From positions 79,687,959-79,751,958 of the forward strand of contig NC_080579.1 in assembly GCF_029962835.1 (NCBI RefSeq): a DNA stretch of 64,000 nt, written 5' to 3'. Source of the stretch: Magnolia sinica. Lineage: Eukaryota; Streptophyta; Magnoliopsida; Magnoliales; Magnoliaceae. Below, piece by piece: positions 922 to 50,689 of the stretch. Position 1 is the stretch's first letter; each line of letters opens with the position of its first letter. The translations under genes and the position numbers were made by a program. The notes below the pieces were generated by a model. That model saw only the letters and a program-made list of their open reading frames with translations. It did no database searches and was not told the DNA's origin.

Positions 922-2055
922 CTATATATATATATATTAATTTTGATTTTGGAATTTGCATGTAACCCATCTGCAATTGATAATGGAGTGAATCGTGCTT
1001 TAAGGACAATGTAATTTTTACGTGATTCAGCCTCGTAAAACAAAAATAAATAATTATTTTTATTTTTATTTTTCAGTATTTCCACCACATTTTTCCAACA
1101 CGTGGCATGAAAATTTCATTAAATCTTAAACGTGCTAACCATAACTAGCCTGGGTAGGATGGCTCGCGTTCATCTCCAGGTCAGCATGGATCCACATCAT
1201 GCGCTGACCAAGGTCAGGCAGAGCTCTTTTAATACACTCTGATCGCCAACAGTCTTCGGGTTTGTGTTTCCACTCCGTGTTCACTATTTGAGAGATAGCA
1301 TGGGATCAAGTATGCCGTGCGCACGTACTGCGCTAAGTGTCTATAAGCCATGCAACATTAATCACTTCAACAAAAGTCCACTCTGTGCTGAACGATGTCT
1401 TGCACTTAGCATGCACAGGCGGAAAGCACTCTGAGTGGTCCAATGGCAGCGTGACATGTGTCCATAACCTCCCAACTAACTTTTAGGTGAGAAATAACTG
1501 TGTAACCATCTCGTGGGAGAGAAATAATGGTCTCCCATCATTATAAATACCCCTTTAAATCTTCATTCCCATAACTCATGCCATTTGATTCCTGAGATTG
1601 CTTAATAGCTATTCGGCTCTACACCATCTGTTTGAGCACCAATAGTACCCCCCTGTTGACTATTTGAGAGACTTGAGCTGCAGCTCAATGCTTATTGTTC
1701 ATGACACTGGTGGTGGCTGTGTTGATTATCCAAAGACCCAAATAGTGACCTGCGCTGATTGTTTGGACTGATTAATAGAACTCCTGGGTGGTCCTGCTCT
1801 AACTGTCAAGAGGGTCGACTCTAGGTTTCTCCAGTAGAATGTACTAGTTTTGTTTTTGTCCAAGGACTTTTGGACGCCTCAGGGCAAGGAAAACATGCCG
1901 CTAGAACTTCCAAACTTTCTGGAGCTTATATAGGATGACATGCTATGTCTATTGAGTGTTTGAAGCATTGCTATGCTCTGCCTAATCAATGATCTAGACA
2001 CACTAAAGACGAAGGATCATAGATTAAGACTATTATGTATCATGTAACAAACTAG
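761..2055. other. Intergenic stretch with TC and TA microsatellites, no gene seen
   Basis: Contains a TC run at about 877-917 followed by a short TA run. The rest is unannotatable AT-rich DNA. Apparent long frames here translate the dinucleotide repeat and are not credible genes. The last 15 bases before 2056 belong to copy 2 of the dispersed repeat. Confidence 0.7.
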
Positions 2056-2336
2056 CACTACACCAAAAAGGCCATTTAGGAACGAGCCTGTCTTTGGTTC
2101 TGAAACGGCTTAAAAGCTGTACCAAATGTGGAAGCAAATATAAATCCCTAATTTCATCACTAATCCCCTCACTCCCTACCCTCCCGGCCTTCTAACGCGA
2201 TCTCTCCCTCTCTCCCAGCCCTCTCGCGCGCTCGATCTCTCCCTCTCTACCGGCCCTCTCCCACGAGCGATCTCTCCCTCTCCCTATTCCCGACCCTCCC
2301 TCTCGATCTCTCTCCCCATCTGTCTCCCTCCGTCAC

Positions 2337-2419
<83 letters not shown>

Positions 2420-2450
2420 TTCCCTCTCTCCCTCTCCCTTCAACAGAAAC
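2056..2450 (+). other. Left terminus of element A and TC-rich leader
   Basis: The CACTA terminus is followed by ATTTAGGAAC and a CGGCTTAAAAGC subterminal repeat, then a pyrimidine-rich stretch (CTCTCCCTC, GATCTCTC) with a pure TC run at about 2339-2417. The same order of parts recurs at 5176, 24647 and, degenerate, at 45563. The pyrimidine tract resembles a plant 5' UTR or core-promoter leader, which is inference. Confidence 0.7.
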
Positions 2451-5175
2451 AGCTGGAGTTCGGATCGGATTTCGCAGGTGTGAAGCGGCTGGAGTTCGGA
2501 TCTGGTCCGTGCGCTTAGGGATTGCATCCAGTCCATCCATAAGGTTTGAATCCACAATTCCATGATTTTCCTTACTCAGTTTCTGTTTTCCCCTAAATTT
2601 CTATAGATTTTGGTTTTGATCGTTTTGCATGTTCTAGACTGTTAATCTGATGTGGCCATGAATGGGGTTTTTTCATGCATGTCCTCTTCTATCAAAGCTT
2701 CCTATTAACTATGCCCTTTCCGATCTTGCATGACAGCCTTCCAATCCTTGTTTCTGCCATGGATGGCTTCATCTTTGTGGCAAAACCTGTTCATGAGTCG
2801 GATAGATAGGACCATGAATGGGGTTTTGTCATACATATCCTCTTCCAACAGAACTTCATATTAGTATTTGCCTTGCATCTATTGTTTTCCACTATATACA
2901 TTTGTACATTTCTGTCTCGAAGAAATTGGGGCTTCGTTGCGTACAAGAGTTTTGATCCTATACCCAGCATCAACGGCTTCATTTCATCTCCCAAATCTAG
3001 TGCTAAGGGTGGAATGAGTTGGGGATTAGTGGTGCTTTGAATTGTAGCAAATTCCATAAAACAAGGGATAGTTGGATGGTTAGGATCTTTGAATCTGACA
3101 TATTTTGGGGATTGTCGAACATGGGCCCCACTTATGCTGAATGGGTCCATCACTATACCGTTTCACAACCCAATGCATCATGTCCTTGTAATTCCTCCAA
3201 AAGTTAATATGGTAGGCTTGATAAAAGCTGAAAGCTTTCTGGTTGTCTCCTGATCAATTCCTGATGCATCCAACGGTTCATGTTCTCAGATGCAATGCGA
3301 TTTATAATGGGATATCCTGAAAACAAGAACTTAAGAGCGTGTTTACAAAAGTGCTAGATATTGCAATATCCATATTCGATATTATTGAAAGTACCACTAA
3401 AATGGAGGTTTTAATACATTTTTCTCTGGCCCGTTGAAAGCATACCAATGGCAGGGAAGGGCCTAATATTGCACCTGAAATTTCATTTTGATGCATTTTT
3501 ATTTTTAAATTTTGTTTTTTTATGGCAAGTTTTGATGAGCGGTTCAGGTGATCTTCATGCTAGGACTCTGCTTCTTCACAGCTTGGATGTTATAAACACG
3601 TGACACATCTACTTACTGCATGTGAACGTTGCATGCATTGAGTTGTAGGTGGACATTTTTCATTTAAAACAAACTTGATCTGTTGCACGTATCGAACTAC
3701 ATGACTCTGGCAACTTGTTACCTGATATGTTGCTGTACTGAATTATAGTTGAAGCCTGGTGCTATCTCATACTTACCCAGTCTTAGCTTGTTAGTCAACC
3801 TTGTATTGCTTAAACAATAGTTAGGTAGTAATGTGGAGTTGTGGATATTGCTTGTTGTCGCAGTGTTATATCACAGATGGATCTGGTAGATTGGAGAGCC
3901 CAGTTAGATTATCAGTGCATTGATGGAATAGAAGATTTTCACCTTGATTTTATTAATTTAGTTGGTCGAGCTGTCAAACACCATTCTTAACAAAAAATAA
4001 TAATCTGCAGTTCGTTGCCAGTTTAATTTCTGCAAAAGGGATCAGCAATCTGCAGTTCATACTCATAGGCTCAGCTTCCTTCAGTTTTTGCAACTTCCGA
4101 CGTTTGAACACCATTAAAAGTGAATTTGAATGCCAATGAGAATGCCGATGGCGATCTTCTTAGGCCTCCTGCTTTATGAATTTGAATTTACTGTAACGTG
4201 TCTGTCAAAACTACCTTCTGAATTGTTTATCTTCATGATCTCCAATCCATTCAATATGGCATTGATTTTTTCAGGATCACTCATATTTGAAGGACCGACG
4301 CATACACTTGTGACTCCCGAACTGTTGGGGCCCACAAGCATTGTCATCTCTAAGGTAACTGCATTTTTTAAAAATCTCGTCTCCATCCAAGTATTTTTCC
4401 TTTAAATGTTGCTTATATAGCTGCTTGATCTCCAGGAATATTGAGACCTTAATCTTGGGTAAAGGGCAGTTGGGCAATGCTTTTTTTCCATTCATTAACC
4501 TATTCTCAACCTTGCTTGCCATCCATGTCTGCCTGTCCTGGTAACATGCATGATCACGCATCATTAAAAGAAAATCTGCATAGTGGCGCTGTGCTTTCAT
4601 TTCTTTGACTGGATTCTAAATGGCTGCATATGTTATCTAAGTATGTGTGTTCTCTGTCAGTAGAGACTTGGCCCATGCCGGTCCCATCCCTAATTGTACC
4701 ATATTTGTAGCTGTCCCTTGTGGAATTTCATGTAGACTTTCTCTTCTTCTAACTTTCATGGCTTATTGTTGTGTGTTTTTAACTTTTTATCCATTTAACC
4801 CACAAACATCTTTCGAGGTTATCTCATTGTTTTTCTTATTCTGTAAGATTATAAAATAATGGATATTGTATATGGTGTCTTTATGGGAACTTGATTTCTC
4901 ACATGCAACATTCCCTGTTTCTGGAAACTCTTTGCTTTAGAGGTATTGATATTTTCAAACAGCTTCACCATGGGTTTCAATATCCTAGTTCTATAAAATA
5001 TAAAGTGATTTCTTCATGGAATGTTTCTTTCAGGGACTATCTTAGCCTAAGTTCATCAGATGAATCTCCGGAAATAGACTAGAGTAGATCTAGTTCTTAA
5101 AACAAGTTGAGATGTGAAGCAGAAGAAATATCACATCTAGGTTTAAATCATTTTGAAATATCTATTATTTACATG
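2451..5175. other. Element A interior, no recognised gene
   Basis: About 2.7 kb of AT-rich sequence with intron-like texture. Possible small exons follow AG acceptors near 3873, 4274 and 5033, the last ending in a stop within about 55 bases. None gave a peptide I could assign, so this may be captured intron or UTR sequence. Confidence 0.4.
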
Positions 5176-5420
5176 CACTACACCAAAAAAGCTATTTAGG
5201 AACAGGTACCTCTTTAGATCTCAAACGGCTTAAAACCGTGTCAAATGTGAAACTGTTTTATACCTTTCCAAAACCAACACATATCCCTAATTCCAGCCCC
5301 AATCCTCTCTCCCACCCCTCCCGGCCCTCTCACGAGATCTCTCTCTCTCTCTCCCGCTCCCCATTCCTCACCCGCCCTCTCGATCTCTCTCCCTCGTTGT
5401 GGCTCATCTTCCTCTCACAG
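5176..5420 (+). other. Internal CACTA left terminus with TC-rich leader
   Basis: CACTACACCAAAAAAGCTA begins at 5176 and is followed by ATTTAGGAAC, AACGGCTTAAAACCG and a TC-rich stretch at 5304-5400, closely paralleling 2056-2450. The 3 bases before it are ATG, which do not match the TAC after 12595. This may be the end of a nested relative that lost its right end, or an end duplicated within element A. Confidence 0.7.
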
Positions 5421-5921
5421 CAAGCCTCTGCCTGAGCATTTAGGGTTTCTGTTTCCTTGTCTCATCTCTGCATTTCTTGAAAATCTGCTTCTGCTTGCAG
5501 AGCTCTCATTTTGATCAAAACGATCTAAGTTCCGATTTTCCGTTCTCCGAAAATTTCGGGTTTCTGTTTCAGATCTACGCTTGATGAATTCCGGTTTTAT
5601 TTCTGATTCCAAAACTCCTCATCGACATTCCACCATTGATGGATCCATAGGACCTGTGAATCACGTTTTGCATGTATCGTCAGCTGACGGTGGTGTGATT
5701 TTAGTCAATCAAATCGTGTGGTGAGGGTTTAGCACGGTTTGCACATGAATATGGTCACTGTTTTCTGATCAGATGGTAAGAAAATGTCTTGATTGTGATC
5801 TACGTTTGGATTCGTGATGTTCTGTGGTTAAGGTTGTTGTGGGTGCTTTTGGTTGGATTCCGATGGCGATTGGGTAAGGAAATTTTGAATTCGGTTTCAT
5901 CTTCTGGAATTTGTTTTTGGC

Positions 5922-6247
5922 ATGGATGGGAATATGCCGAGCGGGAATATGATGTCTAGTCCCTACGTAGTGTTGGACCTACATGGATCTTTGCATCCGC
6001 ACCAGCATACGCAGCAACACCCTCATTCGCTTCACTAGCAGCACCTCCAAGATGGATTTCCTCTCTCAGTCGGGGCCCACCTCGGACATCGAAGCTCCAT
6101 GGGTGGTGATCGGGCCAAGAACTGTACGAGTGATGAGGATGATGGTGGAGGGAAGGGGAAGAAGAACTCCCCGTGGCAGCGGATGAAATGGACGGATCAG
6201 ATGGTGCGGCTTCTGATCACTAATCCTCTGTACTGTGAATTATGGTA
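5922..6247 (+). pseudogene. Captured 5' part of a trihelix transcription factor gene
   Basis: From ATG 5922 one frame reads an N-terminus with VVLDLHGSLHPHQH, a His/Gln-rich stretch, an acidic TSDEDDGGG segment and then SPWQRMKWTDQMVRLLIT, the start of the trihelix DNA-binding domain of plant GT-type factors (the At1g21200-like subgroup, recalled from knowledge). A TAG at 6036-6038 interrupts the frame where a glutamine codon would fit. Homology stops right after RLLIT and a stop follows within a few codons, so most of the DNA-binding helices and the C-terminus are missing. The preceding 500 bases (TAGGGTTTCTG and similar) look like the parent 5' UTR. A functional factor is excluded. Confidence 0.75.
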
Positions 6248-6824
6248 AGATACTCCACTGGCTCCACCATCCTGGCTTGACCTCTCATGCTTTCTGACAG
6301 TAATCTGCTTCCAATAGCTGTTCTCTGTTGATCCACCATCCTGGCTCGACAGATTGTTTAAAGTTTTTTCTGTTTTGATTTCTGATATGAATCATAAAAC
6401 TTGTGTATGGATATCTCAGTTCAATTGCTAGTATATTTATTTGTGATTTGTTGTTTGATACCTCAAACCCCGTAGTTGCTGTTTTGGGTTAGGGTTTTGG
6501 GCTTTGGCTGCTTTGGAGCAGCTCCTGTATTTTTGCTTTCTCTCTGCGTTTACCTTTTTTCTCTTTGTTTTCGTTGTTTCCATGCCTTGTTTTTCCTCTT
6601 TCCTTCAATAAAGGTACCATCTTTCAAAACAGAAGAAGAAGTAGAAGCAAATTTTCTTTGATCCATGCTTAAATAGTTCTAATGGGGATGTGAAGTGGGT
6701 CTGGCTGCTGTCTCAGTGAATGTGAGTGAATTGTTTGTATTAATTTTGAAGTTCTTAATATCTGTTACAATTCTAAATTGGTTCATTTAAGCAAGTAAAC
6801 TTGTTGATAACTGTGCTTTTTCAG
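6248..6824 (+). other. Junction between captured fragments
   Basis: T-rich, intron-like sequence between the trihelix fragment and the first DUF616-type exon, ending in a TTTTTCAG acceptor. It contains a partial internal duplication of a CACCATCCTGGCT block (about 6265 and 6338). No coding sequence was recognised. Confidence 0.5.
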
Positions 6825-8037
6825 ATGAAGATGTACTAGAGGGCCCCAATGCAGACCAAAGATCTTCTCAGCGTTTCACCGTTGTGTCCAACAACAACAA
6901 TATCTCAAGTCAGTACGATTCCCCCCTAATATCCAGGGAACAAGATAGTAAGAGGGAAAATAATTCTTCTTTACTGAAGATGCGGTCATTAATTATTGAA
7001 AATAAAACCTTGCCTCGTCCTCTTCGCATTCGTCCCCCTACCATTCATGCAGGGGCCCTTCCTCTGCCTCGTCCTCCTGCCATTCATGCAGGGGGCCTTC
7101 CTCCTGGACATCCTTGTGAAAATTTCACACTTCCACCTCCACCGGCAAATAGAAAACAGACTGGCCCACATCGTAAGTTTGAGTCCCTACAATGCTCATA
7201 TTTGGATGTTGAAATTATTGTAGTTATGAGAAAGCTGAATTTTGTTGCTTCTTGTTTTTTCTCTTTCAGCTTGTCCTGTCTGTAACCTTCCTGTTGAGCA
7301 GGCCATGGCCTTTATGCCGACTACTCCATCAGTTTCTCCTATACTTGAGAATTTAACATACATTACAGAAGAAACTCCAATTAGTCCACCACCATTTGGA
7401 GGCTCTCCTTTTGGTGGATATCCATCTCTGCAACAGTGGAACGAATCTTTTGATATAAAAAAGTCCATGAGTGTACACTGTGGGTATGGTTTATATCTCC
7501 TTATTAAATGTTTTATGAATTTTTTTAAGTGGTCAAGTTTTTCTACTAAAAAAATGATATTGTTTAATCGTTTTTTCGTCCATATCTTTGATTGTGTTTA
7601 TAAGTGTGTTTTTGAGGAACAAAAAAAAAGGAAAAAAGAAAAGAGAAGATTTTTCTTATAGCTATGAATGTTGGGATTTCTTTCAATTGATTGATTACTC
7701 ATGTTGTGTTTTAACTGACACATTTTGTCATTACATTTGTTAAAGGATTAATGATGTTGATATTCTTGAAATGGAGGAATGCCGTGGAATAGTTGTTGCA
7801 TCAGCTGTATTTGGTACTGATATGAGCATTAGAAGTTCAAGCGAGTGTAAATTTTCTTCTTTCCTCATGAATATGTCATTTACCAGGAAACTATGACATA
7901 ATACAACAGCCAAGAAATATTAATGAGGCTGCAAAGAGAAATGCTTGCTTTTATATGTTTGTGGATGAAGAGATGGAAGCATATATAAAGAATTCTAGTG
8001 CACTTGACAGCACTAACAGGGTGGGACTATGGAGAGT
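6825..8037 (+). pseudogene. Captured exons of a DUF616 / MUCI70-like glycosyltransferase gene
   Basis: Four exons with GT-AG borders are visible: about 6825-7172, 7270-7483, about 7746-7813 and 7887 to about 8037. Spliced, they give HPCENFTLPPPP, then CPVCNLPVEQAM and a PFGG...GGYPSL...ESFDI...MSVHCG block, then DILEMEECRGIVVASAVFG, then YDIIQQP...KRNACFYMFVDEE...VGLWRVV. This order is diagnostic of plant DUF616 proteins, which include the putative Golgi hexosyltransferase MUCI70. The third exon is shortened. The first carries an in-frame Pro/His-rich duplication (two copies of IHAG). Start, C-terminal half and stop are missing, and sequence after VGLWRVV is no longer DUF616. Retained introns show genomic rather than cDNA capture. 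Confidence 0.85.
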
Positions 8038-8345
8038 TGTTGACGATTCTCCATGTGTGAGATCTGTGGCTGCTTTGTCAATTTCAGTTTTGAAACTTCT
8101 GCTGAAAGGTGTGTTTTAGAATCTAAAGGTCATATAGTGAGTGAACACATCTACAACTATGAAGGTATGCTTTAGAATCTAAAGGTTATATATAGTGTTA
8201 AAAACTAGTGGATGGCTTGGAAAATTCAGAGAAGTTATATTAAATTCAGATTTGATAGTATAATACACCCAAAGTTTTTGTAGTTATGGCTGCATCTCTC
8301 CTTGCAGTTAATTTCTGAGTGCAAGAGCTAACTGATTGTTAACCA

Positions 8346-9112
8346 GGTATGATTGCCCAGACCATGTGAATCCTGCAGAATATTTGGCCGATCTCATATC
8401 AGTTGACTATAGTTCTGCTGAAAGTGTCTATTCTTCTCAAAAGAGGATTGATGACCTTGTTGAGGCATTCTCACAGAACACATCAAATATTCTATATGCA
8501 AGTCCAATTACCAAAAATGAGGCCTTGAAGATCCCAACAAAGTTTGGCAGGAAATCCCAACAAAGAGGATTGATGGCCAATGTTTTTTTAGAACTCAACA
8601 AATGTCATTTTTTTTTGTGCTCCTTTGTTGCATATAATCTCGAATGTTTTCATAATTTGCTACTCAAGAGTAAAATAGTCAGGTGATTGAAAATCTACTT
8701 TGGAAACAATTTGTGGTTTGGAAGTTGTCCCAGAATATGATATTCACAAAGCGTGTGAGTTTCAACAAGAAATTTTCTGTATGTATAACATTTAGCTTCA
8801 TATAACATGATGACACCTTTCAATTGAATTCTAAGACAAATTTTAAGATTTTTATTTTTTTTTATTAATTCTATAGCTTTTGTGCAGACACCTTAATGGA
8901 ACAGTCATCTTCAATTCTAAGTCTCTCCTAAGTTCTTCTCTTCTATCAGCTTCTGACTTCGAAATGATATTTATTCTTAGGCTTCTCGTGATGGGCCTAC
9001 AAACAAAGTTCGGGCAAGAATGTCTATTGCATCAGCTATAATATTTGGTTCAGTCTTTTGGTGAACGGGAAAATCTCAGACATCCATACAGGACAGGATG
9101 GGACTACTTCAG
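8346..9112 (+). pseudogene. ABCG7: Captured exons of ABC transporter ABCG7
   Basis: Exon 8346 to about 8560 reads YDCPDHVNPAEYLADLIS, then DYSSAESVYSSQKRIDDLVE, part of the linker after the nucleotide-binding domain of half-size ABCG (WBC7) transporters. A second exon, 8981-9112, reads ASRDGPTNKVRARMS, then IASAIIFGSVFW and TSIQDRMGLLQ, entering the first transmembrane segment, with an intact GT donor. A TGA directly after the FW codons replaces an expected arginine codon. The exon between (the basic stretch ahead of ASRDG) is missing or eroded. Walker motifs and most membrane helices are absent. The ABCG7 assignment comes from recall of the plant sequence and is firm at subfamily level. Confidence 0.85.
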
Positions 9113-10892
9113 GTTTGCATCACTCTGGCTTTCTTTAAATTCCATGCCAGTTCTGATGGTTGATGTGTTGAATAACTAAATTATTGGATATCAGTTATAG
9201 TACATATGATTTAATATGTGACCACATAACTTGTGATACTAGAAATAATATGCTATTTAGATGTTTTACTAAATTAGTATAATCCAGTCAGCGAAGCACA
9301 TGTAAAATGTAACAATAAAAAATGAAAAAGTGATTCTAGCTAATATATTGAACCCTGCAGTAGTGTTTCCATTTCTGGTGAATTTTGATTTGTTACACAC
9401 AAATCCTAGATGACACTCCAATTGGACATGCAAATCCAAGATTTTGGCATGATACCATATCAACCTTGGCATTGTGCCAATGACCAGTTGACCTAGGACT
9501 GATTTCATTTCTCCTTTGAAACTGAATGTAAATAATATCATTTGTCACTCAGGTTTTCAAATGGTAACATGGCTCATTTCATGCAACTGTTTATTGTTTT
9601 GTGAGTTCTTTTTCTTTGTTTTGTGAGTGCTAAATATAATTTTTGCAAAGCTGTCAAGGTAAAGAACAATTTTGGATGAAAAAAATAAATTATGAGTAGA
9701 AAAACAGCATTTAAGAGTGTCGAGTTTCTTTCTAAGGACTAGTTGTTTAAGCCTCATTGATTAACCAATCTTTTGTGACCAGCTTCTTTGACAACTTTCA
9801 TGGTTTATCTGTCTGATTTCCTTAGCCCTGTTTGGTTGCCACTTAAAAAATGATTTCAGCTTCTTTGACAACTCATGTTACCAAGCAAAGGAGACAGATG
9901 CTCTCGTAAAGCTAATCATAGGTACAGTGCGGGTGGTGGTTCTGAGCTATGTATAGAATTAATATTTCATCATCATCCTCATCTAAGAGTATGCATTGGG
10001 GAATGTTAATGTCTATGTTCCCTAGGCTGTTGTTGGCTGATTTCTCATACCCTACACACGGATCTTCTCCTAATTTAATGATAACTGATCTGCAGGTGGA
10101 CTTTTGCATTAGTCATTGTCTATTTTGCGGTATGTCCTACTCTTCATTCTCTTTGTTCTATAAGAGTATGCATTCAATCAGGCCCCTTTTTTTGTTAGTA
10201 GCATTGCGATATTTGTAGGTATTTATTATCTAGATAATAGAATGGATTTGTATGTGCAATGTCTATTTCTAAAATGGTAAATGAATTCAATTGAAGCTGA
10301 ATACAATATTCAAGCCATTTTCAGCTTTACATATACGATTGTTGATTGTAGCTTGGCACTGTGATATCTGCTCATGGATGCTGGATGTATTCAAACCATC
10401 TCATGGAGAATGAGGAAAGTGGTGGATTCTTGAAAACAGATTTACAAAGTAAATCGGCAACCGCAACTTTCAGGACAAATAAAATCAGGGGTACCATCAA
10501 ACTGCAAAGCTGTCATGAGAAAGAGGAGATCGAGCGAAGAGCTGGGTTTTAGGGTTATCTGATGCAATCTGTATATCAGGTTAGTTGGTCGAAACTGTTC
10601 GATACTATTTCCAAAGTGCTGTAGGCTCAACACAGGGCATTCACAGTGACAGAAATAGATTGGTCTCATCAGTGCTTTATTCTAGTTCCTGATAGTTTAT
10701 ACCATGTACAAGTTTTCATTTATTCGATTTCTTATGGAGTGCATTGCTGCAAAGTGCACAATTAGGAATTCTTCCTTGCCACCCGTGATATAGTCTTGTT
10801 TATCATTTGGGTGTTGTTAGGTGAGATTTCTGGTGAATTTGTCTTGAAATTGCATACTAAAGTCGATCTGTTCATTTGAAAGACTTGTGCAG
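9113..10892 (+). other. Element A interior, possible unassigned exons
   Basis: AT-rich sequence. An open stretch after an AG acceptor near 10350 encodes about 67 residues (VISAHGCWMYSNHLMEN and on) before a TAG. An open run at 9949-10218 is serine-rich. Neither was recognised. They may be captured exons of unknown parents or chance frames. Confidence 0.35.
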
Positions 10893-10972
10893 GTGCTGTC
10901 ATGCTAACGGGCATCATTTTCTGGGGTCTTATAGTTCCGTTTCTCTCAATCGAACATTTCAGCTTGAATATG
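10893..10972 (+). pseudogene. Captured exon of a FAR-17a/AIG1-like membrane protein
   Basis: An 80-base exon between an AG acceptor and a GTGAG donor encodes GAVMLTGIIFWGLIVPFL followed by a SIEHFSLNM tail. This hydrophobic segment resembles a transmembrane helix of plant FAR-17a/AIG1-like proteins. The match is short and from memory, so the family call is tentative. Only this exon of the parent is present. Confidence 0.5.
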
Positions 10973-11117
10973 GTGAGATTTCTGTTCTATTCATTCCTTT
11001 GGTTTTTCTAAAAGGTTAAATACTCCATCATAAATTGGTTTGATGTGTACTACATTGAGTTGACATGGTTGATTGTGTGCTCATTTCTGCAAGCACTTGT
11101 CACTTTGAAATTTTTAG

Positions 11118-11330
11118 GGGCCTAGCTTATATTCACAGTGTACCCAGGGTTTGTCATAGGGATGTGAAGCCTCAAAATCTTTTGGTATGTGTTTTCTTTA
11201 TTAGGGATGTTTACTGAATTTGTTCTGTTTGGGAACTACAATTGTTTATCTTACTTGGTGAATTTTTGTGCAGGTGGATCCTCTCACCCACCAAGTTAAG
11301 CTTTGTGACTTTGAAAGTGCAAAAATTCTG
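11118..11330 (+). pseudogene. Captured GSK3/shaggy-like kinase exons with altered DFG motif
   Basis: Exon 11118-11184 encodes [20 protein letters not shown], the catalytic loop with its HRD and the KPQN metal-binding signature. After an 89-base GT-AG intron, exon 11274-11330 encodes VDPLTHQVKLCDFESAKIL. This is unmistakably the GSK3/shaggy (brassinosteroid-insensitive2 type) family. The magnesium-binding DFG has become DFE and DFGSAK is now DFESAK, so even an intact product would probably be catalytically dead. ATP-binding lobe, activation-loop tyrosine and C-lobe are missing. Intron and splice sites are well preserved. Confidence 0.88.
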
Positions 11331-11453
11331 GTACATGCACACCTTCGTGCTTTTTATGGTGTACTTTCATGCTTAAAACCTGACCAGTGGGAATATATCA
11401 AGTTCTGCATATCATCACAAGGGGAAAGCGAACATATCATTTTAGACTTTTAG

Positions 11454-11827
11454 TTGATGCATTATCTAGGCTCCTTGATATAGTGAGGGAATTAGGTCCA
11501 CGAAGAATCATCACGGGTGTGTTACTTTGATCTTCTTTGTCTACAAAATCTTACCTTTGATAATTTTTTATGTTAATTATGACTTCTAAGTGGTACCTGA
11601 TATCATTGGCATTTGCAAGCATGAAACACCCAGTTGGCTTCACACAGCAATTTCCACTAACTCAACCACTGTCACAAATGTTGTAGGCTGTGGCTGGTAA
11701 AGGACATGAAACTTATCAACTAGAAGGCAGCAAGAAGTTCTTCGATGATAGGGAAGAGTGCCAAGAAGCGTTGCAATATGTTGATGAGCTTCATCAAGCT
11801 GGGATAGACAAGCGAATTTCCATGGCA
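11454..11827 (+). pseudogene. MURE: Captured exons of plastid MurE-like ligase
   Basis: Exon 11454 to about 11516 encodes VDALSRLLDIVRELGPRRII and exon 11687-11827 encodes VAGKGHETYQLEGSKKFFDD, then REECQEALQYVDELHQAGID. Both match the C-terminal domain of UDP-MurNAc-tripeptide ligase, which in plants (PDE316) acts in plastid transcription and greening. The two exons are not adjacent in the parent: the region between them (the GENDRGKRP-like segment) is missing. Relative to the family, two bases are lost after GID, which shifts the frame. A GT donor (GTAAG) follows. Non-functional fragment. Confidence 0.85.
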
Positions 11828-12101
11828 GTAAGTTGATCATCAGTCTTACCTGAGTATTAATTGAGCTTACTAGGCCAAATTTCATTACAAAAACCACTTT
11901 TTTTCCTTCGCAACATCACTTCATAGATTGGGATTTTAATTACCCGGTGGGTGCTATATCATATTCATGGTGTGATCACCTTCTATAAGGTGTTAGCTCA
12001 TAGGATTAGGATTTCATGGCCTACTCTTATAAGCTACTTGTTCAACGATCTTACTTCCCAATCTCATAAAGCATTAGTTAATGATTTCTATTCATGTACA
12101 G

Positions 12102-12197
12102 GTTTGAGGAGCAAGAGGTTCCTGGTTCAAGGTCATTCTTTACAGAGATTATTTCCTCGATATTGGATATTAAGTTCTTGAAGAATGGGCCATTGTA
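12102..12197 (+). pseudogene. Captured exon of a PP2A B55 regulatory subunit
   Basis: After the acceptor TTCATGTACAG an exon encodes FEEQEVPGSRSFFTEIISSI, then LDIKFLKNGPL and a TAA. This matches the plant PP2A 55-kDa B subunit just before its first well-conserved WD40 strand (RSFFTEII-SISDIKF). It is truncated in place of the following RYILSRDY segment. It is the last gene fragment before the right terminus, and its TAA could terminate a chimeric transcript read through element A. Confidence 0.78.
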
Positions 12198-12329
12198 AAT
12201 TTATTATTGTAAATATATATAATTTTTATTATAAAGTTCCTATATTTGGTTAATATTAATTTTTAATTGTACTTTTTCTTTGGGTTTTAAATATAAAAGG
12301 AAATGTAGGCCATTTCTAAATAATGAAAA

Positions 12330-12595
12330 ATACCGTTTCTAAAATAAGGCAGCATTAAGAACCGTTCCTGAAATTTAATATCTGGCCGTTGGCAACATTG
12401 AGAACGGTTTAAAACCGTTCCTAATATAAAAAATTGACCGTTTGCAACATTAAGAACGGTTTAAAACCGTTCCTAAAATTCCATTTCTAAAATTTCAAAC
12501 AGTAGCCGAAACGGTTTAGAACCTTTGCTGATTTGCTGCGACGCCTCATTTAGGAACGGTTTAAACCGTTCCTAAATGACAATTTTTGTGTAATG
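12330..12595 (+). repeat. Right terminus of element A: palindromic subterminal repeats
   Basis: Several copies of AACGGTTTAAAACCGTTCCT or truncated forms occur, each a near-perfect palindrome, spaced by short AT-rich DNA, with the last ending at GTAATG 12595. Element B has the same array at 33150-33402. In CACTA elements such repeats are TNPA-type binding sites. That role is family knowledge, not shown here. Confidence 0.85.
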
Positions 12596-13161
12596 TACTT
12601 TTCTCTAGTTTTTACCTTTTAATCAATGGATTTTCCGTAGGGAATGTAATTAAGAGCCTGTAAGTAAGCACAGCCTAGAAGTAGCATGAAAAAAATGAGA
12701 AAAAGCTAAGGATTGTAGGTTTTTAGTTACGGACATAAACCGTAGCTATATTGCTACGGTTTAATCTGATCCCTCCCCGGCTAGAGGGCTATGGAGCCCA
12801 CTACAATGTGTGTTTTATCTAAGCCGTCCATCCATTTTGATAGCTCATTTTAAGGCATGAGCATAAAAAAGTAGGCAAATAAAGGCTCAAGTGGACCACA
12901 TCGTAGGAAACAATGGAGATAAGTTTCTACCATTGATTTGTGGTGTGGTCCACTTGAAGCTTCGATTTGCCTCTTCTTGGGAATCGAGCATAAAATTACC
13001 CATTGAAATCATTACTAATGGGATGAAGTGAAAACACCAAAATGATAGCCTGGTATAAAACCTGTATGGTTATAAGAGTGCTTCAACGGTTATCAATGAA
13101 TGACCACTGTTTCCTCTCGTGTGGCCTACCTGATTGTTGGATACACCTAATCTTAGATCAC
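12596..13161. repeat. Dispersed repeat, copy 2, left part
   Basis: Collinear with positions about 15-650 of copy 1, lacking its GA expansion. It is split from its beginning (about 2041-2055) by element A and from its end (16334-16440) by a solo LTR. Confidence 0.8.
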
Positions 13162-16100
13162 TGTAACGCCCTGAAAATCGGGGGTCGAGCAAGAGCCCAA
13201 CTCCCGAGTCCCAAAACATCACTTATGCAACATATATGATGATGATTAAATGTTATCTGTATTAGTGCATTAAACATGTGTGGGATTATACCAAATCAGT
13301 GTATCATACTCCAGAGGCAATTAAATAACGTAAGCGGAAGACTGAGAGATGTATCTAAGCATATATGGAATGTATAGACCATTGCCGGTCTCCAAAGTAT
13401 GAATACATTGCCAGGTCAAATAATTACATGTATTAGTTCAAAATACAAAATATCAAAGATAGTCCAACTACAAATGATAAGCCCTACAGCCCCTGTCGAT
13501 CAGGACAGTCTAAGTAAACCCGTCTGATAACTGCATGTAAGAGAACTCCTCCTCGTCGTTGTAGAAATCAGGCTCCACCTCATACGTCGCATCGCCATCT
13601 ACAACTAAGACAGTCCGGTTGGTGTTTAAAACATCGTCCCAGAATGTGGGAGTGAGTGATCAACTCAGTGGAGCTATAAGGCAAAGGTTAACATGTTATC
13701 AATTCAATCAAGCAGAAATGATAAAGCAGTACAACAATCAAGCCCTAAATACTCTTGTTAATGCAAAGATTGTATGATATGATGCATGCCCTCGCCTGCA
13801 CTCCCTCTGCGAACTTCATCTCACGGTCGCGGCATGCACCACTCCCGACACATGTTACTTCATCGCCAAAGCACCGTGCAATGCAATGTTATGATCATAT
13901 TAACCAAGTTCTTACTTAGGTTTATTCATACAGCAGGGTTGGGAAGCTAAGGTACCTCCCTTATATCAATTCCCAAACAATGATCCATTCTAGGGTCGTC
14001 AGTCCTAGTAAATCTCATACGATGTTACGGTTCTAGGTCACTACAAAGGGGTCGTCACCTGATCAGTGTAGGCCTAGTTTATACTCTAGTTGCTACAAAA
14101 AGGCTCGTCGCCTCAACGCGGTCTCAGAGTACGCTCAAGGTCACTACAAAGGGCTCGTCACCTAATCAGTGCAGGCCGACAGCTCGAATACAGTGTCCCA
14201 TACCACCGTATTCGACTCACGAGTTTGGGTTGCTCACTAGTCACTACGGGGAGGCTCGTCACCCCAGCATAGGCCGACAGCATGACCACGGTATCCCATA
14301 CCACCATGTCCGGCTCATGAGTCTTAGTGGATCGTGGTACCATGGTTAAACGGGCTTTCCACTGGTGAGTTTGGTACCTTAGGTTCAAGCAGTAACATCC
14401 ATACATGGTGAACATACATCAGGTCAATCAGGTTACTTGACGAGCTCGACTAGTATGAGCATACATCAAAATGATCGACATGAAGTGCATAAGCACTCCG
14501 TGTGGCCTAACCACTGTCGACAACCGAGGTACAACTCGGATTCATCGAAGACGTCCTGAGTGGCGAAACGACCACGGCCACCAAACCAGGACCTGTTACT
14601 GATTGCCTGGACTATACCATAGTCTCAAACATACTTCAAATACAATAGGAATACGTATGCGCTAGTCCAATACAGCATGTAGCAACTAACTTAAACATAA
14701 GTCTCATTTGAGCATTTCAACGAACACAGTGTACATAATAGCGTACATAGGCATTTCAACCATAAAACATGTAGTAGTGTATAGATACATAAAGGAAAAC
14801 TATAACCATGGTTAAGGGAATTGAGAATCCTATCTCAACACCCTCATTACATGCATTCCAACAAGTATTTCCTCGTTGAGGCATTTTATCAAACACTTAG
14901 ACTACACACATTACATGCATGTAATGACTTAGTTAAAACACATGTTATAGCAAATCCTTTCACAAGGAAATGTCACGCATACAACGATCATGCATTTACA
15001 ATCAATAATCATGGCAAGCACAAATCATAAATCCATATTCATTCAAGCATATCAACAAACACATGGATTTCACTATATTCAACATAGTTCATAGATGTGG
15101 TAAAGTGTGGGAAACATCGCATCTAAGCATGTGATATCATTCAAGTCAGGCATAAATCATTAACTGACATTGAAAGCCTTGAAAACCATAACCTAAACAT
15201 TTATAGTCTGCACATTTCGCCGGTAGACTCGTAACGGACTCAATTTAAAAGCTAAGTCTTTGTCTACGGCACCACAACAACCTATAACAGGGAATAGGTT
15301 AGCTATTCCACCATTTACACTATTGAAAACCCTAAAACAGATTAGGGTTAGGTTTTCTTACCTAAGAACGGAATCGGAAACGCCGGAATAGCGACACGGG
15401 AAGAGTGGTTAAGCGCGTGGAGTAAGGGGGTTGAATCCCAGGAACAAACTCCAGCTTTCTCTCTTTTTCCTTCTATTTTTCTCTTTTCTCTCCCCTAGGG
15501 TTTAGAAATTTGTATGGAGTGAGAGAGAGAGAGAGGGTTTTAAGCCTTTATATAGGCACAGGACTGATGGAAATGGCCCCAGGGCCAAGGTATACTTAGG
15601 TTATATCCAAAGGGTGTCTGTTTCAGTCCAACGGAGCACTTCTGGTGGCCTCCCTTCAGCATGCGGTCGGACTTAAGCTTTCTGACATTGGATCTAGGTC
15701 AAGCTGAGTTTTCGGTCCGAACGGATTTACAGATCGACCGTGGCGGACCAATTTCAGTTCGACGATCACCGGTACTCGATCAGGGCCACAAGTGCACCGA
15801 CATGAGTTGGAAATTTTTCCTGATCCGAGGGTGTACTTGGGTCAGATTCTTATGGTTTGAATCTTTAAATTTAGCCTGTAAGCGAACGACTCAATTCACT
15901 TAAGTTTCAGTTCACTTGCTAAAGATATTCGCGTTTCTCACAAACTTCGCTCCGGGCTCAAGTTGTGCGTTTCTGGGCACTATTAGGACTTGATTTCTGA
16001 GGTGGTTGTCAAGTCCAGTACTGCAGTCATAACTACATAGTTTTGTAGTAATCGGACTTTTGACGTGTTGTCCAGGTCCGATACGGAGTTTCAAGGTGCT

Positions 16101-16333
16101 CCTGAGAGCAACTGGGTTTAGGGATTGATCCTAGATTTCAGGGTAATGCAGCATTAACGATTCTATACATTTTGAGTCTTGCAGTTCGTGTTTATAGTGA
16201 TCAGTGCTAATTTCACAGGTAATCTGGTTCAGCACTAGATAATTATCGTCTAATTTCTAAAGGATTTGGTCCTTAGTGATTTCTGCCTGAGGTGGTACTC
16301 GGGTCTTTGTATGGATTTTTTTGAGACGTTACA
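13162..16333 (-). mobile_element. Solo LTR (3.17 kb), Del/Tekay-like Ty3/gypsy
   Basis: It runs from TGTAACGCCCTG to GAGACGTTACA, with TG...CA ends and flanking 5-mers ATCAC and ATCGC (one transition). It splits the dispersed repeat cleanly. No internal direct LTR pair, PBS or coding domain is visible, so it reads as a solo LTR. A relative in the opposite orientation is at 41474-44923. Read on the minus strand, it has a TATATAA-type box near 15548-15556 preceded by GGCCCTGGGGCC. The Del/Tekay assignment rests on LTR size and the TGTAACG...CGTTACA ends and is inference. Confidence 0.8.
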
Positions 16334-33149: not shown

Positions 33150-33402
33150 TTAAAATTCCGTCATAAAATCTGACCGTTGGCAACATTAATAAGCATTCAA
33201 AACCGTTTCTAAAATTGTGCCCAAAATGTGACTGTTGGCACCAGAACGGTTTAAAACCGTTTCTAAAAATTGAAACAGTACCCAAAACGGTTCTGAACCG
33301 TTCTTGATTTTCTGCGACGCCTCATTTAGGAATGGTATTAAACCGGTCCTTAAAGCATTTAGGAACGGTTTAAAACCGTTCCTAAATGACGATTTTGGTG
33401 TG
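33150..33402 (+). repeat. Right terminus of element B: palindromic subterminal repeats
   Basis: Collinear with 12340-12595 of element A: CTGACCGTTGGCAACATTA, repeated AACGGTTTAAAACCGTT, TGCGACGCCTCATTTAGGA and the terminal GATTTTGGTGTG. Homology between the two right ends is the strongest sign that A and B belong to one family. Confidence 0.88.
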
Positions 33403-34262
33403 TCACCTTCATGAGTATGTTGTATATCCACGTCACCCATCCTTTAAGCAGATCCAAATCATTGGTGGACTACACTTTAAAAACTTTTTGAAGGCCACAA
33501 GTTTTGGATTAATCTGGTCTTTGTATTTCCCTTCATTGAGGTCTGGCTGACCTTATCAGTGGGTTGGATGGCAAATAAACATTAGGGATCTACTTTTGGT
33601 GGGTCCCGGGTTGCCTTTGTATTTTAATAATAGTGAAAAGCAATATTTTCTGTTTTATGAGTTTTCAATGGTTTTGTGTAGTACTTTATTTTTCATCAGG
33701 TTTACTCGCATACATGTAGCATCTACCACTGCTTCCCAGAATATTTTTTTGTTAGACTAAAATGGATACGGATCTAGTTTGTAGCTATTTTTACTTTTGG
33801 CTTTTTACTACAGAATTAGGCCTACTTTTGGATACTAATTTCTTCCGTAGCTTTTTTTTTTCCCTATGGGCCTGGTGATTACGAACTAGATCCGTAGCCA
33901 TATTAATAGCTACAATTTTAGTTCGTAGCCTTTGTTCCTTTTTTGGTATCTCATTGACAAACAGATAGACTTACATAAGAGATGTACCATCACATTAATA
34001 ATAGATTAGTATTGCTAAAGGAAGATCAACTAAATATATTTTTGAGTGCAAGTATGATTTCTGTACTATTGAATCCATAATGAAAACACATGGTGACTAT
34101 TCATTGGCCCACATTGAGGCACTGAAAATGGGTGTAAATGCAAGCTATGACTAAAGGAATGATTAATTAAAAGCGAAGAGTTGTTGCCTCATGAGGGTGA
34201 AAAAGGAGTAAAGAAAAGTGAATAAAAGACCACCACTGCTAGAGTATTACAGAGCAAATTAT
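33403..34262. other. Non-coding, relics of other DNA transposons
   Basis: 33420-33640 has MITE-like blocks (GTGGGTCCCGG, GGTTGGATGGCAAATAAAC). 33755-33945 repeats TACGGATCTAGTTTGTAGC-type motifs in both orientations, also seen at 63188-63356 and, more weakly, near 200-240. No gene was seen. Confidence 0.55.
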
Positions 34263-41473: not shown

Positions 41474-44400
41474 TGTAACGTCTCGGGAAAATTCCGTACA
41501 AAGACCCGAGTTCCACCTCAGGCAGAAATCGCTCAGGACCAAATCCTTTAGATTAGACGAAAATTAATCAAGTGTTAAACTAAATTATCTGTGAAATTAG
41601 CTTGAACCACTTTAAATACGAACCGCAAGACCCAAAACGTGTAGAATCGTTGACGCTATATTACCCTGAAACTTAAAATCAATCTCAAAACTCGGTTGCT
41701 CTCGGGAACACACCGAAACTCTGTATCAGACCTGCACCGCACGTTGAAAGTCCAATTACCATGAGACTATACGAATATGACTGCCTTACTGGGCTTGACA
41801 ACCATCTCAGAAATCAAGTCCAGATAGTATCCAAAAACGCACAACTTTAGCCCGGAGCGAAGTGTGTGAGAAACACGAATATCTTTAGAAAATGTACTCA
41901 GATTTAAGTAAACTAGGCTGTTCGCTTGTGGGCCAATTCTAAGGTTTCAGATTGTCAGAATCTGACCCAAATACACCCTCAGATCAGGGAAAATTTCATA
42001 CGTAGGTCAGTTTACTTGTGGCCCTGATCGAATGGCAATGACCGTTGAACTAAAACTGGTCCTCTGCGGTCGTTCCGTAAATCCGATCGGACCGAAAACT
42101 TAACTTGACCTAGATCCAATGTCAGGGAACTTTCCCTAGATCGTATGCAAAAGAAGGGGCCTCCAGATGTGCTCCATTGGACCAAAACAGCCACTCTTTG
42201 GCTATAACCTAAGTATACCATGGCCCTGGGGCCATTCCCTTCAGTTCTGGGCCTATATAAGGGCCTTTACCCACCCCTCTCTCATTCCATACGAATTCTA
42301 AACCCTAAGAGAGAAAAGAGAGAGAAAGTGGAGAAGTGAGAGAGCGAGTGTGAGATAGTTCTTGGGATTCGATCCCACTACTCCGCGTACGTAACTACTG
42401 CTTCCGTGTCGCTATACTGGAGATTCTGATTCCCTAACCTGTTTTAGGAATCCAAATACGTAAATCGGTGAAATAGCTAACCCGTTTTATTGATTAGGTA
42501 TTCAAAGTCTAGTTTACAAGGCGAGAGTGTTCAAACTGAATCCATTACGAGTTTACCGGCTAAAGGTGCGGACTATAAACGTTTAGGTTATGGTTTTCAA
42601 GGCTGTCAATGTCGGTTAATGATTTATAACTGACTTGGTTGCCATTTCTCATGCTAGATACGATGTTTCCCTCGCTTTACAGATATATATGAACTATGTT
42701 GAATATAGTGTAATTCATGTGTTTGTAAAAATGTTTGAATGGGTATGGAATTTGGATTCGTGCTTTCCATGATTATTCGTCGTGGATATATATGATTGTT
42801 GTATATGTGACAAATCCTTAGTGAAAGGATTTGCCCTAATACATGTTATGACCAACATACGTCATGTATGTTGAAGTGTGTAGTCTAAGTGTTTGTAAAA
42901 ATGTTTGATTGGGTATGGAATTTGGATTTGTGCTTGCCATGATTATCCGTCATGGATATATGATTGTTGTATATGTGACAACTCCTTGGTGAAAGGATTT
43001 GCCTTAATACATGTCATGACCAACATACGCCATGTATGTTGAAGTGTATAGTCTAAGTGTTTGTAAAAATGTTTGAATGAGTCTGGAATTATGATTTGTG
43101 CTTGCTGTGATTATTGATCGCTAATACATGATTGTTGTATACGTGGCTACTCCTTGTGAAAGGACTAGCTATAGTATGTGTTTTTAACAAATTTATTACC
43201 TGTGTGCAATATGTGTGGTCTAAGAGTTTAAAAAAATGCCTAAATGAGAAAATGCTTGATGTAATGTAATTACTGAGGGTGTTCAGATAGGATTCTCAAT
43301 TCCCTTATATATAGTTACAGTTTCCTTTATGCCACCTATCTTACTACTCTGTGATTTACAGATGAATGCCTATGTATGATGACATGTGTGGTATGTGTTT
43401 GTTGAAATGCTCGAATAGGATTTATGTTTAGATTTGGTTGTCACATGCTGTCTTGGAATATCACATGTGGATGCTGTTGGTTAGAGTGTAATTGGGGCTA
43501 CGATGTAGTCCAGGCAATCGGTAATAGTTTACGATCGGTGGCCGTACTGCTTAGCCATACGCCTGATGAATCCGAGTCGTACGCTGTTTGTCTATAGTGG
43601 TTAGGCCACGCGGAATACTTACGCACTCCATGTCGATCAAGTCAACGTACGCTCGTACCAGTCGAGCTTGTCAAGTAACCCGATTGGCCCAATGTATGTT
43701 CACCATGTATGGACGCTACTGCTTGAATCTAAGGTACCAAACTTACCAGCGAAAGGCCCGTTTAACCTTGGTACCTCGATCCGATAAGAGTCATGAGCCG
43801 GGCATGGTGGTATGGGACACCGTGGTCGAGCTGTCGGCCTACGCTGGGGCGACGAGCCTCCCCGTAGTGTCCAATGAGCAACCCAGACTCGTGAGCCGAA
43901 TACGGTGGTATGGGATACTGTATTCGAGCTGTCAGCCTACGATCAGGTGACGAGCCCATAATGACCTCGAGTATACTCTAAGACTACGTTAAGGCGACGA
44001 ACTTTTCCGTAGTGACCTCGAGTATAAACTAGGCCTGTACTGAGGTGACGAGCCACTCCGTAGCTACCTGAAACTATTCTTCGTATGTGATTAACTAGGA
44101 TTGATGACCCTAGATGGATCAATGTTTGGGTAAGTGATATGAAGGGAGGTACTTTAGCTTCCCAATCCTGCTGTATGAATATGCCTAATTAAGAACTTGA
44201 CTAATCACGATCATGCATTGCACTGCATATGCTTTGGCGAGGAAGCGCACGTTTCGGGAGGATGCCATGCGCGAATGTGAGATGAAGTCACTGAGGGAGT
44301 GTAGACGAGGGCATGCATCATTACCGCATACCATTCTTGCATTAATAGGAGTAATCTAGGACATGATTGCTGTACTGCTTGACTGAATTGATAACATGTT

Positions 44401-44923
44401 AACCTTTGCCTTATAGTTCCACTGAGTTGATCACTCACTCTCACTCTGGGACGGTGTTTTAAAACACTAACCAGACTATCTTAGTTGTAGATGATGGCGC
44501 AGCTTATGAAGCGGAGCCTGATTTTTATGACGACGAGGAGGAGTTCTCGTATATGCAGTATTCTAGCGGGTTCATGTAGGCCGCATTCTGATCGTTGGGG
44601 CTATAGGGATTTCATGATGTAGACGGACCTACACATTTTGATATTTTGTATTTTGAAACAATACATGTAATTGTTTAACCTGGAACATGATTATACTCTG
44701 GAGACGCACCACCACTTATATGTTTTAAACATACCTATCATGGTCTTCTGCTTGCGTAATTTAACTGTCTCTGGGGTATGATATGCTGATTTGGTATAAT
44801 CCCACTCATGTTTAGTGCACTAACACGGATAACATTTAATCATCATTATCCATGTTGCATAGGTGATGCGTTGGAACTCGTTAGTTGAACTTCTGCTCGA
44901 CCCTCGATTTTCAGGGCGTTACA
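41474..44923 (+). mobile_element. Solo LTR (3.45 kb), Del/Tekay-like, opposite orientation to 13162-16333
   Basis: TGTAACGTCTCGGG at the start, CAGGGCGTTACA at the end, and perfect AATAC duplications at 41469-41473 and 44924-44928. The sequence is collinear with the reverse complement of the other solo LTR (ACCCGAGTTCCACCTCAGGC, CAAATCCTTTAGA, CCTCCCCGTAGTG blocks). A TATATAA box at about 42254-42260 sits between GGGCC boxes and is followed by an AAACCCTAAGAGAG leader, so transcription would run on the + strand. No internal region. Part of the length difference from the other copy comes from a tandem expansion at 42721. Confidence 0.88.
42721..43160. repeat. Tandem repeat in solo LTR, ~169 bp unit, 2.5 copies
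   Basis: GTTTGTAAAAATGTTTGA restarts at 42721, 42891 and 43059. Each unit contains TTGTATATGTGACAA and AAAGGATTTGCC, and the first two ACCAACATACG. The third is incomplete. Confidence 0.88.
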
Positions 44924-45562: not shown

Positions 45563-45845
45563 CACCACCAAAATCATAAATTTAGAATGGTAGCTGTTTT
45601 AAATTTGGAACAGTTTTAAATTGTTTCAAACGTTTTTTTAAATATATATATTTAAAAAAAAAAAAAAACAGCCCTAAAGAGTTTGTCCGCTCGATACCTC
45701 AAATTCCCCAAATCATCTTACGTCTCTCTCATGTTCTCCTCCTTAAAAAAACCCACTGACCGACCCTATCTCCCTAAGAAAACCCCAATCTCTCATCTTC
45801 TCCCTAAAAAAACCCATCTCTCTTATCTTCTCCTCAACCCACCGA

Positions 45846-45903
<58 letters not shown>

Positions 45904-46292
45904 CTCTTTAATTGAAGATGGTCAGTTCTGCATCCCCGCCGACATTGGCGCTGACAGAGGCGCAAGAGTTCAGGACAATCAGATCTTTGAGTTCAAGGAG
46001 GCATTTAGCATGTTTGACAAGGATAAAGACGGTCAGGTCCCTTCAATCTTCACTTTTCCCCTGTTTTCTACTGGAAAATCTATTGATGTTATGATTTTTT
46101 ATAGATTTTTTTACGGTCAAGGTTTTTTTTTTTCCGTTTGATTTGATGTTGATTTCATTAAATCTTATGGTTCAATGCTTCAATTCGTTGCAATCAGGCT
46201 TGGCAGAGAGCCATGTGGTTGGAAATTTGCTTATTGCATTCCCTGATGAGTACCACGTCCAGTGAGATCTAGTCATTTTGCTCATTGTAAAC
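45563..46292 (+). mobile_element. Truncated, degenerate third CACTA family member
   Basis: CACCACCAAAATCATAAATT, then TTTAGAATGG and a TTTGGAACAGTTTTAAATTG subterminal-like block, parallels the left ends at 2056, 5176 and 24647 with decay of the CACTACACC tip. It is followed by the same pyrimidine-rich leader (TC run at 45849-45901) and a captured host exon. The right part is missing: the Tat-element LTR begins at 46293. Confidence 0.5.
45918..46035 (+). pseudogene. Captured first exon of a calmodulin gene
   Basis: About 45970-46035 encodes DNQIFEFKEAFSMFDKDKDG, the first helix and start of EF-hand loop 1 of calmodulin (family: [20 protein letters not shown]). The break falls where plant calmodulin genes have their conserved intron, after the loop glycine. 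The upstream ATG (45918) is in another frame, so a frameshift separates start and EF-hand. The other three EF-hands are absent. Confidence 0.75.
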
Positions 46293-50598: not shown

Positions 50599-50610
50599 TG
50601 GTATCAGAGC
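50599..50610 (+). other. Primer binding site (tRNA-iMet)
   Basis: TGGTATCAGAGC directly abuts the 5' LTR and is the standard plant copia primer site complementary to the 3' end of initiator methionine tRNA. Confidence 0.95.
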
Positions 50611-50689
50611 TATAGCTCTAAATTTCCATTTGTCTCGTGCTCTCAAGTTTCTTAGTCTCGGTTATTCTTGTTCTAGTTCTGTTGACCTC

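Follow-up and report, generated by a model that had tools for sequence, protein, structure and literature searches.

A CACTA element of Magnolia sinica with a second 5′ terminus in its interior and cargo from about 17 source loci

Introduction

The mechanism by which transposons with terminal inverted repeats (TIRs) capture host genes is still debated, and the current model for Pack-CACTA elements is the fusion of neighbouring elements. A stretch of 64,000 nt from Magnolia sinica (C7:79,687,959-79,751,958; the window) raises the question in a concrete form: how did one CACTA insertion of 10,540 bp, at window positions 2056-12595, come to hold pieces of about 17 loci together with a second, internal 5′ terminus? 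A sequence-only reading of the window had described the insertion as a CACTA element with pieces of seven unrelated host genes. We compared it with the genome of the species (1.84 Gb in 127 contigs, of which C1-C19 are chromosome-sized); scoring was confined to the best-ranking candidates, which makes the genome-wide numbers of family copies minimum values. With good confidence, we regard the insertion as a non-autonomous, Pack-CACTA-type CACTA (En/Spm) transposon that arose by fusion of two related elements and whose cargo was acquired partly in rounds and partly as a patchwork.

Results

The outer 5′ end starts at 2056 with CACTACACCAAAAAGG, and its inverted copy spans 12567-12595 and stops at the last base of the insertion (29 nt, 83% complementary). 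CACTACACCAAAAA is exact at 2056; the 3′ terminus at 12595 is decayed and differs from it at 3 of 14 positions. As in other members of the CACTA superfamily, the TIRs start with CACTA, subterminal repeats are present at both ends (AACGGTTTAAAACCGTTCC type; the 3′ end has four copies of 45 nt, and each of the two 5′ ends has weaker ones), and a 3-bp target site duplication flanks the insertion. Its left copy is TAG (2053-2055) and its right copy TAC (12596-12598), with one substitution, as judged against five aligned empty sites. All other parts of the element described below are on the plus strand unless stated otherwise. The outer 5′ terminus and its CT-rich subterminal region (2056-2440) had 46 genome-wide matches, with 40 of the 49 candidates scored. 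For the 3′ terminus (12187-12595), which contains the subterminal repeats AACGGTTT..AAACCGTT, 766 candidates were found genome-wide and 40 scored; in the generic copies that were compared, the match starts at 12186-12206. A Helitron, which makes no target site duplication and inserts between A and T, is ruled out by the 3-bp duplication and the inverted terminal repeats, and a Pack-MULE, with long TIRs and a duplication of about 9 bp, by the 29-nt inverted arms and again the 3-bp duplication.

To define the inserted unit, the joined flanks were used as a 600-base query. The join was crossed by 10 of the 53 matches listed (best 40 of 2804 candidates scored), two of which cover the full query length at 82-84%. 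In the five empty sites that were aligned, TAG is directly followed by TTTT, while the window reads TAG, element, TAC, TTTT. Such unoccupied copies exist because the flanks of the element sit in repeated sequence, and one of them is the very start of the window itself. Within the flanking regions 1-647 and 12697-13158, positions 170-647 and 12697-13158 are 88% alike and represent a repeated unit. Since the empty sites join the two flanks, the whole of 2056-12595 is the insert, including the internal terminus described next.

This second CACTA 5′ terminus, with its subterminal region, lies at 5176-5395. It is intact, shows 82% identity to the outer 5′ terminus over 61 nt and directly abuts a piece of an auxin response factor gene. 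The ATG that precedes 5176 differs from the TAC after 12595. In all, two 5′ termini and one 3′ terminus are present; a 3′ terminus belonging to the outer element was not seen within 2056-12595, and no fusion intermediates were seen. This arrangement suggests a two-5′-ended fusion of two related elements, which is part of an explanation that we consider, as a whole, very probably correct.

DNA searches of the genome assign the cargo to about 17 source loci, counting two pieces from C5 as one locus and excluding sequence that belongs to the CACTA family. Piece boundaries were taken from local comparison with the retrieved genome loci, after removal of C7 loci (the window itself), rows below 45 bp and rows within the CT-rich stretches 2190-2460 and 5300-5420. 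The matched loci are on many different chromosomes, and the pieces stop abruptly at the joins that were read, as expected for the capture from unrelated loci which the sequence-only reading had proposed. A check for a parental syntenic block likewise found the parents on many chromosomes and no block. The seven genes named at that time (trihelix, DUF616, ABCG7, FAR-17a, GSK3, MurE and B55) are all recognisable, with the number in ABCG7 and the name FAR-17a read from the translations; as a count of donors, seven was too low. The internal terminus at 5176, the mosaic at 3040-5175, and a SEC5 piece and a piece of unassigned nature (X) had not been part of that description.

Ten of the gene names are backed by family models or PDB sequences: TOD1/MUCI70, GSK3, MurE and B55 directly, and trihelix, receptor kinase with malectin-like domain, F-box, ARF-type B3, Sec5 and ABC2 membrane via the donor loci. 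Parent loci or PDB sequences were used for naming because Pfam searches with the short exon translations did not return the expected family for the trihelix, ABC transporter, FAR-17a and MurE pieces. No Pfam match was obtained in two FAR segments, and none to myosin at the C15:73.36 Mb donor. Rfam gave nothing in the window.

The 5′ part of the element begins with family sequence. Positions 2050-3040 are shared with a copy on C12 (78%), and within the inherited stretch 2440-3040, positions 2440-2684 are common to CACTA copies on C5, C17 and C1 (two copies). The following patchwork, 3040-5175, consists of nine pieces, each 127-508 bp long, whose eight source loci are on C8, C15 (three places), C19, C18, C2 and C5. 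The first piece (3040-3547, no strand assigned) matches C8:4785347-4785846 at 84% with 5.3% substitutions; this C8 locus adjoins an opposite-strand open reading frame (ORF) with a KOW motif below the Pfam cut-off. It is followed by matches to C15:23175166-23175299 (3545-3678, 96%) and C19:6267205-6267331 (3809-3935, 92%). Positions 4010-4337 are an antisense (minus strand) piece of a CrRLK1L-like receptor kinase gene from a C18 locus with an open 902-aa ORF (Malectin_like 1.1e-27 and Pkinase 2.6e-45 at the donor), and 4336-4507 a piece of an F-box gene (C15:72972350, 94%; F-box-like 2.6e-11 at the donor locus). An exon end with intron (4497-4670, 92%) comes from C2:13508775, a locus that we take to be WD40/TWD40-like, and 4667-4809 (92%) from C15:73363120, presumably a myosin XI-like gene. 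Two pieces of an auxin response factor gene region at C5:108.70 Mb complete the patchwork (4808-4970, 94%, and 4971-5175, 96%); their join omits 1474 bp of donor sequence. At this donor one ORF has a B3 domain (1.6e-7) and the other no Pfam match. The own-genome search gave no donor for 3679-3808, 3936-4009 and, further downstream, 9988-10052 (about 270 bp); a dedicated search of 3670-4015 recovered the C19 match alone.

Substitutions between patchwork pieces and donors amount to 3.4-7.0% over eight of the nine pieces (the C19 piece was left out) and 5.3% overall, without heterogeneity (chi-square 4.5, 7 degrees of freedom, p = 0.72). Seven comparisons in the second half of the element were less homogeneous (p = 0.03). 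Joins with both sources known were scored for microhomology by a scripted count. The ten joins share 1, 3, 2, 1, 4, 2, 0, 0, 10 and 2 bp; the seven within the patchwork have 0-4 bp, trihelix/SEC5 has 0 and TOD1/X has 10. The sum of 25 bp compares with 7.2 expected if the same loci were cut at random (P = 0.0002), and with the longest and two possible deletion joins excluded it is 13 versus 5.1 (P = 0.011). We regard this pattern as moderate evidence for microhomology-guided joining.

Downstream of the internal terminus, the cargo is made up of longer pieces. The 5′ part of a trihelix gene (5394-6221) has its parent at C6:49246549 (Myb_DNA-bind_4 2.5e-16 in the parent ORF) and is shared up to 6013 with a CACTA copy at C10:40913443. 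This copy (C10:40.91 Mb) has the 5′ terminus and the trihelix piece as in the window, with about 155 bp extra between them. A piece of the exocyst SEC5 gene follows (6216-6329; C19:67587722, 94%; Sec5 3.4e-15 at the donor locus), and then a stretch with no named donor (6330-6469) that is common to C1:107.53 Mb and partly to C10:27.38 Mb (81%). The TOD1/MUCI70 (DUF616) piece with introns (6470-8045; PF04765 at 1.5e-7 and 1.4e-14) has a related covering copy at C5:14.597 Mb and lost about 60 bp at 7836; on C8 and C9, copies that have CACTA 5′ termini also contain TOD1 pieces. Piece X (8036-8253, 94%) also occurs at C14:79796785 and, from 8106, at C3:11718953. The ABC transporter piece (8252-9987), which we assume to be ABCG7-like from its translation, has its parent at C2:132.12 Mb (ABC2_membrane 6e-7) and a shared copy in a CACTA element at C14:51.80 Mb. 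The piece from 10053 to about 11110 is related to copies on C17 and other loci (93-96%); by its translations it is presumably FAR-17a/AIG1-like. Two exons of a GSK3 kinase gene (11110-11454) match GSK3 chains in the PDB (about 4e-12) as well as the chain of a different kinase (2e-14). A plastid MurE/PAP11 piece (11454-12025, 5e-27), with candidate parents at C17:67374861 and C17:67277835 (match 11540-12028), and a PP2A B55 piece (12025-12186, 3.7e-5 in the PDB search) precede the 3′ terminus. The exact donors of the TOD1, FAR-17a and GSK3 pieces are ambiguous, as each matches many loci.

Several of these joins are present elsewhere in the genome. The series MurE, B55 and 3′ end is found at four other loci, which extend into MurE to different degrees: C6:83.83 Mb from 11996 (about 30 bp of MurE), C5:104.40 Mb from 11785, C16:52.46 Mb from 11594 and C5:55.08 Mb from 11389. 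Among 18 matches to 12000-12186, these four copies and the window cover 12000-12024; the other 13 start at or beyond 12025. This fits a MurE-B55 join that was made once and then passed on. The copy on C14 has the order TOD1-X-ABCG and contains 741 bp more between X and ABCG than the window, which makes the X/ABCG join of the window look like a later deletion. As TOD1 and ABCG have the same order on C14 and are 741 bp apart there, parental synteny was considered, but rejected. The C14 copy is better read as a related element with common cargo, because the two genes are separated by piece X, for which two other loci are known, and a CACTA 3′ terminus of its own follows 1.3 kb downstream.

Positions 6292-6837, which span the SEC5/TOD1 boundary, are also present at C1:107.53 Mb, where a different gene lies upstream; this locus is probably another multi-capture element. 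An ACT-domain-like gene piece (ACT 0.0023, below the Pfam cut-off) adjoins the SEC5/TOD1 module there; we take this neighbour gene to be PurU-like. A sister copy at C5:104.40-104.41 Mb, with 13 kb between its ends, has both end regions in common with the window element. Its interior (1.5 kb searched) carries other cargo: the first 138 bases are family sequence, 130-279 matches C17, and 301-1500 belongs to a C9/C16 family. As several module joins are found in other CACTA copies, the modules were inherited and accumulated in rounds, and recombination between copies is probable.

Introns are retained, as the sequence-only reading had stated. Splice signals were inspected at two GSK3, one MurE, one TOD1 and the B55 exon pieces: AG and GT flank the GSK3 and MurE pieces, and AG precedes the B55 and TOD1 pieces. 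The longest ORF within 2440-12200 has 164 aa, the DFG motif of the GSK3 piece has lost its glycine and reads DFE, and none of the cargo could be recognised as an intact protein. Twelve pieces are in sense and one in antisense orientation, or two if the KOW neighbour is counted (binomial p 0.003 or 0.013; some of the gene names used are readings of translations). Since most pieces are in sense order and the inspected exon pieces keep their splice signals, chimeric spliced transcripts are possible.

Host gene pieces lie between the CACTA ends with no transposase of the element's own, as in Pack-CACTAs. The TNPD-type transposase domain PF02992 is abundant in the genome (best 150 of 1669 candidates scored) and several matches are uninterrupted, but none of the matches listed is inside the element. 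An element with the same ends plus a transposase was not identified when coordinates were compared by eye. A 127-bp family piece (2558-2684) was located about 6.6 kb from a PF02992 match at C3:22.65 and C6:71.72 Mb, which is a lead to an autonomous partner.

Elsewhere in the window, the family is represented by a further 3′ end in the same orientation, 20.8 kb downstream (33150-33405; 74.5% to 12376-12576, last bases altered). An exact CACTACACCAAAATCG terminus is present at 30901. A copia-type long terminal repeat retrotransposon occupies 50419-55133. Its 181-bp terminal pieces are 98% alike, and two ORFs carry its gag, integrase and reverse transcriptase domains. Positions 13162-16333 and 41474-44923 form a long inverted repeat pair (77-78% alike), and an ORF at 45683-46141 has a weak EF-hand match (1e-4, below cut-off).

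Discussion

How could such an element have been put together? We propose that it would be moved in trans by a transposase made elsewhere, and that it combines parts of two related elements. The outer one would have supplied the 5′ end (2056 to about 3040), its 3′ end being gone, and the inner one (5176-12595) would have retained its 5′ end and contributed the 3′ end. Host pieces were probably added to the inner element over rounds, giving a layout with B55 beside the 3′ end, then MurE, GSK3 and FAR-17a inward, and TOD1-X-ABCG and trihelix towards the 5′ end. The outer part would have gained its nine short pieces, drawn from eight loci and six chromosomes, probably in one repair episode in which broken ends copied successive templates at short microhomologies. 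Template-switching repair of this kind would resemble abortive gap repair; a mechanism of Rubin and Levy is cited in PMC8978399. We lean towards such template switching as the origin of the 5′ patchwork. The fusion with the inner element may fall in the same repair step. That patchwork and fusion both stem from one break-repair event at an excising CACTA, with the gap filled by serial template switching through the eight loci, mostly within genes, is suggested only tentatively, as we judge it somewhat more likely to be wrong than right. The repeated rounds of capture proposed by the sequence-only reading find support in the 3′ half, where joins are common to other elements. For the 5′ patchwork, a single episode seems the better description.

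The strongest competing explanation relies on neighbouring insertions alone: in each of many rounds two nearby CACTA copies would have lost their inner ends, and the DNA between them would have become cargo. Fusion of neighbouring elements has been proposed for Pack-CACTAs (PMC8903248, in the sections available; review PMC13317346). Two tandem 5′ termini with the inner 3′ terminus missing are the expected remains under this model as outlined in those sections of PMC8903248. The family 3′ end 20.8 kb downstream in the window, another family 3′ end 1.4 kb from the receptor-kinase donor ORF (C18:29.616-29.620 Mb, donor of 4010-4337), and two patchwork donors (F-box and the presumed myosin-like gene) lying 0.39 Mb apart on C15 agree with it as well. 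However, each round would add one contiguous stretch, and the nine patchwork pieces come from eight loci with no terminus remnants seen between them, so that about eight rounds without traces of ends would be required. We therefore consider this explanation unlikely as a full account. The comparisons fit a need for two processes, neighbour fusion for the unpartnered internal 5′ terminus and template switching for the dense patchwork.

It is very improbable that 2056-5175 is flanking DNA and only 5176-12595 the transposon. The terminus at 5176 is intact and stands directly after a host piece, as this would predict, but uninterrupted paralogous sites join the equivalents of 2055 and 12599, which already contradicts it and rules out an element starting at 5176. 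In addition, the triplet ahead of 5176 is ATG and thus differs from the TAC that follows 12595, and 2056-2684 is common to other CACTA copies. An assembly artefact is less probable still: the joins of 3040-5175 were indeed found at no other locus (best 40 of 75 candidates scored), but the compared pieces differ by 2-8% substitutions from their best matches, where misjoins would be identical, and the joins of the second half recur at independent loci.

Several observations weigh against the fusion and two-process account that we prefer. Present mobility of the element is doubtful, given the mismatch in the duplication and the decayed 3′ terminus. No second copy of the whole composite was found among the scored matches, and growth in place, instead of movement as one unit, could account for it; the 3′ terminus of the C5 sister is broken and gives no proof of a mobile pair of the 2056 and 12595 type. 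In some cases the best match may be a paralogue of the actual donor, and the two C15 loci mean that not all patchwork donors are unlinked, although the rest are on separate chromosomes or at a large distance. Heterogeneity of divergence is not clear when all fifteen comparisons are taken jointly (p = 0.13), and dates alone cannot separate rounds from a burst. The homogeneous divergence of the patchwork fits one episode, but with such short pieces several episodes close in time would fit too. Without its longest join, the microhomology signal weakens to 15 versus 6.5 (P = 0.011).

Comparison with known systems places the element in a familiar class. Tgm-Express1, a soybean CACTA (wp allele), holds five unrelated host gene fragments in 5.7 kb with introns kept, according to the portion of PMC1947982 consulted. 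It resembles the Magnolia element in these respects and softens the view that the cargo is unusually dense; the Magnolia element differs in its about 17 source loci over 10.5 kb, in its internal 5′ terminus and in having cargo modules common to other copies. The Pack-CACTA/Pack-TYPE elements of Arabidopsis, maize and rice share TIRs with target site duplications, host gene pieces and the lack of a transposase; neighbour fusion is described for them, and in maize Pack-CACTAs have the most loci among Pack elements (both from the accessible part of PMC8903248). The 2.1-kb microhomology-joined patchwork goes beyond the neighbour-fusion model alone. In the Tpn1 family of Ipomoea nil, the CACTA ends are likewise conserved and the interior replaced by captured host sequence, and a target site duplication mismatch is given for 14 of 339 copies in the excerpted text of PMC5105172, which reports captured genic regions but no count of donor loci for individual copies. 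Wheat 3B offers CACTA capture at scale, with 140 events, mostly of the Vincent family, and 145 genes, but about one gene per event (PMC4290129, as far as its text was available). No CACTA with this many named sources was found in the open-licence literature searched. Multi-locus Pack-CACTAs are already known, and the Magnolia element is a rich example with unusually legible seams.

In these seams a fusion scar, in the form of the internal 5′ terminus, and a microhomology patchwork stand side by side in one element, with some modules traceable through related copies in the same genome. The order of capture, and neighbour fusion versus template switching, therefore become testable across the orthologous loci of sister species. 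If a single break-repair event is indeed responsible, capture by CACTA elements would be a repair mosaic, and not neighbour fusion alone.

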